A stretch of 64,000 nt of DNA from NCBI RefSeq assembly GCF_008729015.1, contig NZ_RKSM01000001.1, positions 248,001 through 312,000 of the forward strand, written 5' to 3'. This DNA is from Haloarcula sp. CBA1129 (GTDB taxonomy: Archaea > Halobacteriota > Halobacteria > Halobacteriales > Haloarculaceae). Made by a program: the position numbers and the translations under genes. Numbering within the stretch: the first letter of the stretch is position 1; each line of letters starts with the position of its first letter. Of this stretch, positions 14,241 through 18,308 are shown in pieces. Below the pieces are notes generated by a model. That model saw only the letters and a list, made by a program, of their open reading frames with translations. It did not search any database and was not told the origin of the DNA.

Positions 14241-15209
14241 ATGGACATCGGTGTACTAACCGTTCCCCTCGGCGGACAGTCGCTCGATGAGGCACTGGCG
14301 TACCTCGACGATCTGGGCGTCGATGCGGTCGAGCTGGGGTGTGGCGGCTTCCCCGGCGACGACCACCTCGACCGTCAGGTGTATCTCGACAACAAGGAGA
14401 AGCAGGCCGAGCTGGAGGCGCTTCTCGACGAGCACGACCTCCGAGTGAGCGCGCTAGCGACCCATAATAATCCGCTCCATCCCGACGACGAGCGAGCCGC
14501 CGAGGCCGACCGGGAACTCCGGGAAGCGATTCGGCTGGCCGACCAGCTCGACGTGAACACCGTCACGGGCTTTTCCGGCCTACCCGCCGGCGGTCCTGAC
14601 GACGAAGTTCCGAACTGGATTACCGCGCCGTGGCCGACCGAACACGCCGACGCCCACGAGTACCAGTGGCGCGTCGCCGACGAGTACTGGTCGGACCTCG
14701 CGGCCCACGCGGGCGCACACGATGTGGATGTCGCCATCGAAATGCATCCCAATATGTTGGTGTACGAACCCCGCGGTCTGCTCGAACTGCGCCAGCGGAC
14801 GAACGACCGCATCGGCGCGAACTTCGACCCGTCGCATCTGTACTGGCAGGGCATCGACGTGACCGAGGCTATCCGCCTGCTCGGCGAACACGACGCCATC
14901 CATCACTTCCACGCCAAGGACACGAAGGTGTACGAGTCGAACGCTCGGGAGAAGGGCGTGCTGGACACTGCGCCGTATACGGACGAAGCGGACCGGTCGT
15001 GGCTGTTTCGCTCCATCGGCTACGGCCACGGGGAGTCCCACTGGAAGGACGTGGTGTCGACGCTGCGGATGGTCGGCTACGACGGCGCGCTCTCTATCGA
15101 ACACGAGGACTCGCTCACCAGCGCCCGCGAGGGGCTGGAGAAGGCCGTCGACGTGCTTGACCGCGCTGTCTTTGAGACCCAGCCCGGCGACGCCTACTGG
15201 GCAGAGTGA
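14241..15209 (+). CDS. Sugar phosphate isomerase/epimerase (xylose isomerase-like barrel)
   Basis: This 322-residue TIM barrel belongs to the AP endonuclease/xylose isomerase-like group of sugar isomerases. Probable metal ligands are the Glu in AIEMHPN, the Asp and His in NFDPSHLYWQG, His in FHAKDTK, and Glu in SIEHED. Such genes commonly pair with Gfo/Idh oxidoreductases in sugar or inositol catabolism, and one lies nearby at 17199. The precise substrate is not readable. A T-rich element near 14208-14218 lies about 28 bases upstream. Confidence 0.85.
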   Translation: MDIGVLTVPLGGQSLDEALAYLDDLGVDAVELGCGGFPGDDHLDRQVYLDNKEKQAELEALLDEHDLRVSALATHNNPLHPDDERAAEADRELREAIRLADQLDVNTVTGFSGLPAGGPDDEVPNWITAPWPTEHADAHEYQWRVADEYWSDLAAHAGAHDVDVAIEMHPNMLVYEPRGLLELRQRTNDRIGANFDPSHLYWQGIDVTEAIRLLGEHDAIHHFHAKDTKVYESNAREKGVLDTAPYTDEADRSWLFRSIGYGHGESHWKDVVSTLRMVGYDGALSIEHEDSLTSAREGLEKAVDVLDRAVFETQPGDAYWAE

Positions 15210-16890: not shown

Positions 16891-16992
16891 GGCGGAGCAA
16901 CGCGCGCATCCGGTTTTGTCTTTTCCCTCGGTGGGGTCCGTCGCTCTGCCGTCACCCCGAGCGTTATTTCGGCCCCGAGTGAACAGGCGCAT

Positions 16993-17202
16993 ATGACACT
17001 GGATGTTGGGATGCTCGGCTATCGGTTCACGGCCACCTTTTTCCCGCTCGGGTGGCCTTCGGCCACCACTCGCGGCAAAAACGCGGTCTTGCTGAGCGGA
17101 GCGAAGCAAGGCTCGAAAGAGGAGCGACGCGAGTCTTTCGGTGGCGAAAAAGGCCGCTCGTTCGCTTCGCTCACTCGCGGTACAACTGAGGTGAAGGCAT
17201 GA
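16993..17202 (+). CDS. Small ORF duplicating the start of the next gene
   Basis: This 69-codon frame opens with MTLDVGMLGYRF, almost identical to MTLDIGMLGYRF at the start of the oxidoreductase at 17199. It then runs through a GC-rich insert and ends in a TGA overlapping the next ATG (ATGA). The two 12-codon copies differ at 8 bases, all but one codon synonymous. A TATA-like element (GTTATTT, near 16963-16969) lies about 27 bases before this copy, so transcription probably starts here and the oxidoreductase is reached by coupled translation. Whether the 69-residue product has any role is unknown. Confidence 0.5.
   Translation: MTLDVGMLGYRFTATFFPLGWPSATTRGKNAVLLSGAKQGSKEERRESFGGEKGRSFASLTRGTTEVKA
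17029..17180. repeat. GC-rich palindromic insert between duplicated gene starts
   Basis: The segment is built of repeated words in both orientations (GGTGGCC/GGCCACC, GAGCGGAGCGAAGC, TCGTTCGCTTCGCTCACTCGCGG in parts). These resemble the tract at 6790-6918. It separates the two copies of the oxidoreductase start. No transposase or clear target duplication other than the gene-start copies is visible. Confidence 0.55.
17188..17194 (+). promoter_or_regulatory. Shine-Dalgarno site (GAGGTGA) for the oxidoreductase
   Basis: GAGGTGA ends 4 bases before the ATG at 17199 and inside the preceding small ORF. It supports 17199 as the working start and a re-initiation mechanism, unusual among the mostly leaderless genes here. 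Confidence 0.65.
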
Positions 17203-18308
17203 CCCTTGACATCGGCATGCTCGGCTACCGCTTCATGGGCAAAGCCCACGCGAACGCACTGGACCGCCTGCCCATGTTCTTCCCCGAAGCACCGGCTGTC
17301 AACAAAGACGTGCTCGTCGGGCGCGACGAGGACGCGCTGGCCGAGGCAGCCGACCAGTTCGGCTTCGACCGGACCGCGACGGACTGGCAGGACATCGTCG
17401 ACGAGGTGGACGTGTTCTACAACCTCGGCCCGAACCACGTCCACGCCGAGCCGTCCATCGCGGCGCTTGCGGCCGGCACGCCGACGTTCTGTGAGAAACC
17501 GCTTGCGCCCACGCTCGACACGGCCGAGGAAATGGCTCAGGCCGCCGCCGACGCTGGCGTGCCCGCTGGCGCGGCGTTCAATTACCGTTTCGTCCCGGCG
17601 ATCCAGTACGCGAAGGGACTCATCGACGACGGGGAGCTCGGCGAAATTCACCACTTCCGCGGCCAGTACCTCCAAGACTGGCTGGTCGACCCCGACGCGC
17701 CGTGGTCTTGGCGCAACGACGCGGAGATGGCTGGCAGCGGGGCACTGGGCGACCTCGGTTCGCACACGGTTGATCTGGCGCGGTTCCTACTCGGCGACGC
17801 CGCCGGGGAGATAACTGACGTGAGCGGCCACCTCCGGACATTCACCGAGGAGCGCCCAGTGGAGGGGAGCGAGGACACGCGCCCGGTGACCGTCGACGAC
17901 GCCTACAGCGCTCAGATCGAGTTCGAAAACGGCGCAATGGGAACGCTGGAGGCCTCCCGCGTCGCCAACGGCCACAAGAACGCCCACACCATCGAAATCG
18001 AAGGGTCGAAGGGCGCGGTGAAGTTCGACCTCGAACGCCTGAACGAGCTGCAGGTGCTCACCGAAGGCGACCGGGGCTTCCAGCAGGTGCTCGTCACGGA
18101 CGCCGACGACCCGTACGTCGACCACTGGTGGCCCCCGGGCCACGTCATCGGCTGGGAGCACACGTTCGTCCACGAGAACTACGAGTTCCTCTCGGCCGTC
18201 GCCGAGGGTGGCGAACAAGAGCCGTCCTTCGCTGACGGACTCGCCGCACAGCGTGTCCTCGACGCCATCGAACGGAGCGACGAACGCGGCGAGTGGGTCA
18301 GCCTCTAA
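17199..18308 (+). CDS. Gfo/Idh/MocA family oxidoreductase
   Basis: The 369-residue protein has an N-terminal Rossmann fold (GMLGYRFMGKAHANAL), the family CEKP motif with its cofactor-contacting Lys, and the C-terminal domain start GSGALGDLGSHTVDLARFL. The family oxidises or reduces sugars, inositols or their amino derivatives with NAD(P). The sugar isomerase at 14241 is a plausible pathway partner. The start is preceded by a Shine-Dalgarno site and by a duplicated copy of its own first 12 codons at 16993. Confidence 0.92.
   Translation: MTLDIGMLGYRFMGKAHANALDRLPMFFPEAPAVNKDVLVGRDEDALAEAADQFGFDRTATDWQDIVDEVDVFYNLGPNHVHAEPSIAALAAGTPTFCEKPLAPTLDTAEEMAQAAADAGVPAGAAFNYRFVPAIQYAKGLIDDGELGEIHHFRGQYLQDWLVDPDAPWSWRNDAEMAGSGALGDLGSHTVDLARFLLGDAAGEITDVSGHLRTFTEERPVEGSEDTRPVTVDDAYSAQIEFENGAMGTLEASRVANGHKNAHTIEIEGSKGAVKFDLERLNELQVLTEGDRGFQQVLVTDADDPYVDHWWPPGHVIGWEHTFVHENYEFLSAVAEGGEQEPSFADGLAAQRVLDAIERSDERGEWVSL

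Follow-up and report, generated by a model that had tools for sequence, protein, structure and literature searches.

A dispersed palindromic element with terminator-like features and long gene-end duplications at the start of a haloarchaeal Gfo/Idh gene

Introduction

REP/REPIN sequences and Rickettsia palindromic elements are dispersed hairpins, and those of Rickettsia may sit in frame inside genes. Integrative elements (attL/attR) restore a tRNA or the 3' end of a gene on integration. Among haloarchaea, Haloquadratum walsbyi carries MITEs, which are related to transposons by their terminal repeats, as well as PATEs and SMRs, which lack target duplications (PMC3119063). Termination-reinitiation has been described for haloarchaeal gene pairs that overlap at ATGA, with a Shine-Dalgarno (SD) motif before the downstream start (PMC6728339, PMC10666635); such pairs are strictly coupled in Haloferax, and the SD motif has no role in de novo initiation in haloarchaea (PMC6728339). 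In a Haloferax reporter test, a T5C tract terminated 95% of transcripts, and the authors of that test pointed out that such a signal would harm any gene containing it (PMC7237163).

Here we describe a locus that recalls each of these systems, found in a 64,000-nucleotide stretch of the Haloarcula sp. CBA1129 genome (hereafter, the window), in which the start of a Gfo/Idh/MocA-family oxidoreductase gene is duplicated around a palindromic element. Like the Haloquadratum MITEs, PATEs and SMRs, this element is short, palindromic, dispersed, non-coding and haloarchaeal. It differs from PATEs and SMRs in its 35-100-nt duplications of gene ends and its fixed polarity, with direct repeats across the element in 71 of 155 copies (scoring above the 99% level of mismatched flanks), and from MITEs in that these duplications are variable (32 to >100 nt) instead of short and constant at a few nt. 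The element resembles REP/REPIN and Rickettsia palindromic elements as a dispersed hairpin, but those lack the long gene-end duplication, whereas this element adjoins a restored gene. As with attL/attR elements, a gene end is duplicated and the gene is restored on one side; in contrast to them, there is no integrase or cargo here, one element type occurs at many unrelated genes and a 5' end is also used. Finally, the locus shares with ATGA gene pairs the overlap itself and the SD motif before the downstream start, but its upstream frame is not a gene, being made up of the detached beginning of the downstream gene and a repeat element.

Results

The window locus comprises the following features.

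16964..16969, forward strand: TATA-like TTATTT, 24-29 nt 5' of the upstream ATG
16993..17028, forward strand: left, orphan copy of the duplicated gene start, MTLDVGMLGYRF; similarity reaches 17035
16993..17202, forward strand: 69-codon leader frame across the element, whose TGA stop (17200-17202) and the gene's start codon overlap as ATGA
17033..17086, no strand assigned: first hairpin of the element, CCACCTTTTT...AAAAACGCGG
17038..17043, forward strand: TTTTTC (T5C), the motif that acts as a haloarchaeal terminator in the Haloferax reporter test (PMC7237163)
17087..17144, no strand assigned: additional hairpin-rich module that marks the long form; ~60 nt are missing here from short forms
17145..17153, no strand assigned: CGAAAAAGG, which on the reverse strand is CCTTTTTCG, a second T5C
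17154..17180, no strand assigned: second hairpin of the element, on the gene side
17188..17194, forward strand: SD-like GAGGTGA preceding the real start
17199..18308, forward strand: Gfo/Idh/MocA-family oxidoreductase gene, 369 aa, which opens with the functional copy (36 nt)

The two gene starts (16993-17028 and 17199-17234) share 28 of 36 nt and 11 of 12 residues. Of 3000 random 36-mers of the 64-kb window, only one had so good a match (28/36 or better) in the 300 nt upstream of it, and the next-best match to the Gfo/Idh start across these 64 kb is 23/36, so a chance origin of the duplication is unlikely. The insert is palindromic, consisting of two hairpins and the 60-nt hairpin-rich module, and all the components listed in an earlier note on this DNA (the duplicated start with its 8 differences in 36, the 69-codon frame, the ATGA, the SD motif and the palindromic insert) are present. 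The copy in the window belongs to the long form, its two A tracts lying ~60 nt further apart; the same distinction is seen in the start-to-start spacings of other loci (206 nt in L021/L025 vs 146 nt in L028/L032).

The TATA-like motif is kept, as TTATYT, in both filled (element-bearing) and empty orthologues of the window's clade, so that transcription probably begins at the upstream ATG itself, without a leader. Empty relatives in this clade have the TATA-like TTATTT at 24-29 nt from their ATG and lack a strong SD motif, and for these reasons we infer that they, too, are probably leaderless. A gene encoding a xylose-isomerase-like TIM-barrel protein (window 14241-15209) directly precedes Gfo/Idh in one clade (L036-L050); in the window's clade the two are separated by an AIM24-family gene and a reverse-strand gene.

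Further copies in the window's genome, together with their flanks, define a dispersed family with the plan CCACCTTTTT-hairpin-AAAAACGTGG-GCGAAAAAGG-hairpin, in which CCACCTTTTT and AAAAACGTGG form an inverted repeat around the first hairpin only, the second hairpin lying outside that repeat. The stems are variable, with 118 distinct inner 12-mers among 145 elements, and first-hairpin arms fit each other within an element (mean score 7.0) better than arms taken from different elements do (4.5). Pattern searches identified 11 exact occurrences of an 18-nt core in the window's genome and none with 1-2 mismatches, whereas the full strict pattern returned 9 copies there, and 31 of the 32 genus genomes contained it, with zero hits for the controls. 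In a search of 391 genomes of the class, the core occurred mainly in the window's family, with few copies elsewhere, and no reversed-pattern control gave a hit; among its carriers are Haloarcula, Halomicroarcula, Halorientalis, Halosimplex, Halomicrobium, Halorhabdus and Salinibaculum. The element is thus REP-like in being a short extragenic hairpin present in many copies, which mostly adjoin gene ends. Eight element-bearing loci gave no Rfam match above the gathering threshold, viral contigs yielded no match to the element, and plasmids yielded weak partial matches only. The core sequence was absent from the literature searched, which comprised few subscription papers, and keywords led only to the Haloquadratum repeats; an earlier description may exist.

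The family also has the sequence hallmarks of an intrinsic terminator, with a T5C tract just after a stop codon: TTTTTC directly follows CCACC in 116 of 145 distinct elements, and same-direction left-hand genes end 0-6 nt before CCACC in 30 of 71 cases.

The direct repeats (score of at least 50 in 67 of 155 copies) are copied from the end of a gene, and in 64 of these 67 only 0-8 nt separate the end of the left copy from CCACC. Their length is variable, mostly 35-100 nt, and we know of no transposase that such duplications would fit. Using a simple open-frame and GC3 rule to call flanking genes, and considering as decidable those loci with only one repeat copy inside a predicted gene, the second-hairpin side holds the intact gene in 45 of 47 decidable cases, the other copy being an orphan. 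Most duplicated targets are 3' gene ends including the stop codon, as at the citrate synthase gene (element and duplication in 7 genomes of the genus; empty in the others read) and at a methyltransferase gene, and no clear 5' insertion besides Gfo/Idh was found among the 155 copies. Some loci are tandem arrays of element and gene end. At 3' ends, 83 of 120 differences between orphan and gene copies fall on third codon positions, a bias to be expected if alleles were exchanged on the gene side or if the two copies underwent gene conversion. Since these orphans are not obviously translated, a similar bias at the window locus is no proof of translation.

The array at L052/L053 (G000:C1:2115259-2115476) holds two intact elements and one decayed element, each accompanied by its own copy of one gene end; divergence is greatest in the outermost of these copies. 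At L195 (~395, minus strand), the element lies between two copies of a tRNA T-arm-like stretch (GGTTCGAATCC), as though it had targeted the 3' end of a tRNA. In several genomes (L065, L067, L070, L088, L142, L149, L161 and L176), the 3' end of what seems to be one gene (AGGTCGTG..) is accompanied by the element and an orphan copy, with a nearly constant junction; this would be a second hot spot.

Within the family, the element and the duplicated start occur at 11 of ~72 orthologous Gfo/Idh starts, in at least two gene neighbourhoods and two genera, which rules out a strain-specific accident. The junctions vary: the element lies after TTCA or TCCA; after TTYATG or TTCATTGG; after GACATCGGC; and after GGCGTACTG. 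Filled loci are scattered over the gene tree, where well-supported branches force at least 7 gains or losses, and some of this scatter may reflect losses by recombination between the repeats. The sister pair G024 and G003 is filled (copies 35/36 identical) and empty, respectively, at the same locus. A single ancestral insertion for all filled loci is supported by neither the junctions nor the tree, with losses by repeat recombination being possible. The earlier note had held that the duplication is not a fresh one in the window's strain, and that relatives should be compared; both points are borne out.

The leader frame is open in all 11 filled loci, frames through such elements being open anyway in 79% of cases, and its stop forms ATGA with the real start in 10 of them and lies 4 nt before the start in the remaining one, an arrangement in which stop and start overlap or are a few nt apart, as in termination-reinitiation. 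This phase is maintained across start-to-start spacings of 206, 206, 146, 146, 179, 137, 158, 158, 164, 155 and 145 nt. If all loci are counted (10/11) its probability is p=0.0001, and if filled loci are grouped by junction into ~6 independent insertions, of which at least 5 are in phase, it is p=0.02. The true significance lies between these values, because some loci share an insertion, even though their lengths changed while the phase held. The possibility raised before that the frame is accidental, with relatives lacking the upstream copy and the frame disrupted, is at odds with its presence in several relatives and with the finding of frame-disrupting changes in 0 of 11 loci. An SD motif of at least 5 nt precedes the gene in 7 of 11 filled and 11 of 57 empty loci (p=0.005).

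The peptide behaves differently. Downstream of the duplicated stretch, 6 codons distinguish L021 from L025, every one of them changing the amino acid, and changes in this region are mostly amino-acid changing overall, ruling out a conserved leader peptide; the peptide has no Pfam match. At the level of sequence, the openness and phase of the leader are conserved and its peptide is not, so that the protein-level selection previously suggested holds for frame and phase and fails for the peptide.

In an incomplete genome (L036, ~1440-1510), what is left of the element lies at the Gfo/Idh start and the original ATG is out of frame, which may reflect either a broken gene or faulty assembly. In G019, two Gfo/Idh paralogues (L044 and L218) bear the same element in the same place, and the insertion was probably copied along with the gene.

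Discussion

Taken together, we consider it likely that the element inserted with a long target duplication, that leader and restored gene are coupled by termination-reinitiation, and that in-phase insertions were retained. Starting from the element family, duplication, open frame and phase observed here, we infer a leaderless start, coupling and selection as follows. A double-hairpin, terminator-like element would enter the Gfo/Idh coding sequence ~36-45 nt in and duplicate its target, and the copy on the second-hairpin side would restore a complete gene, as the empty and filled sites of relatives support. The original start and promoter would then drive an open leader frame through the element, stopping on the restored start codon. 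Judging from the Haloferax experiments, Gfo/Idh would most likely be translated by termination-reinitiation at the ATGA, aided by the adjoining SD motif. Because the SD motif is inactive in new initiation and ATGA pairs are coupled in Haloferax, the gene would depend for its translation entirely on ribosomes that come off the leader frame, and insertions out of phase or containing a stop would silence the gene and be lost. Such coupling would explain the open frame, the phase and the SD motif before the real start without a conserved peptide.

That the duplication was born by insertion is supported by its recurrence at citrate synthase, by the contrast between empty G003 and filled G024, and by the closeness of upstream copies to the gene of their own genome. 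When each upstream copy is compared with its own gene and with 71 others, its own gene is at least as close as all of these, or all but one, in 9 of 11 filled loci (in L037, 30/30 against 26/30 for the next best), which points to an origin in place for most of them; the upstream copies of the window and L212 are more diverged from their own genes. In the import from a diverged homologue proposed in the earlier note, recombination would have placed a diverged strain's gene behind an older start, or the reverse, with the element riding along. In its favour, the copies in the window differ at 8/36, the upstream copy there is closer to the genes of 30 other genomes than to its own, and the third-codon-position bias elsewhere is what gene-side allele replacement would give. 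Most other upstream copies, however, carry the synonymous variants of their own genome, and the duplications of the element hit many unrelated genes. Import is thus ruled out as a general cause and is not needed for the duplication; we regard it as very improbable for the upstream copy. Somewhat less improbable, but still unlikely, is a tandem duplication in which a single element lay beside a gene end, hairpin-provoked slippage doubled element and gene end together, and decay of the outer element followed. Several 3' loci do have another element, in intact or decayed form, outside the orphan copy, and arrays occur at L052/L053, L066, L117, L151 and L174; at 3' loci insertion with a long duplication and tandem duplication with decay are not fully separated. 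At Gfo/Idh in the window's clade, by contrast, no outer element lies before the orphan copy, which, like the gene start of empty relatives, directly follows the native promoter region.

The element also places a T5C upstream of the gene in the Gfo/Idh leader. Because this is a strong haloarchaeal terminator motif, the locus may be attenuated; alternatively, following ribosomes would prevent termination. A more specific reading, an addition to the insertion and coupling model more than a rival to it, holds that leader frame and element form a selected attenuator, in which T5C ends the leader RNA unless ribosomes follow closely. The tract is kept in 9 of 11 filled loci, it terminates 95% of transcripts in Haloferax (PMC7237163) and the element is found repeatedly at this one gene; we nevertheless hold this reading to be doubtful, given that most Gfo/Idh orthologues lack the element, that T5C is changed in two filled loci (TTTTTA in L028, TTTCTC in L039) and that no leader peptide is conserved.

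Alongside the insertion and coupling model, we tentatively suggest, at somewhat less than even confidence, that the family represents an undescribed haloarchaeal class: a mobile bidirectional terminator that enters gene ends with 35-100-nt duplications and turns a constant face toward the restored gene, and that has repeatedly built a translated, terminator-bearing leader at one gene start. If so, terminators in these archaea would spread as insertions that copy the end of their target gene, such that the gene survives, and the long duplications and fixed polarity would call for a mechanism not known to us. The Gfo/Idh locus would then constitute a natural repeated experiment, in which a leaderless gene becomes dependent on reinitiation and filled and empty sister species can be compared.
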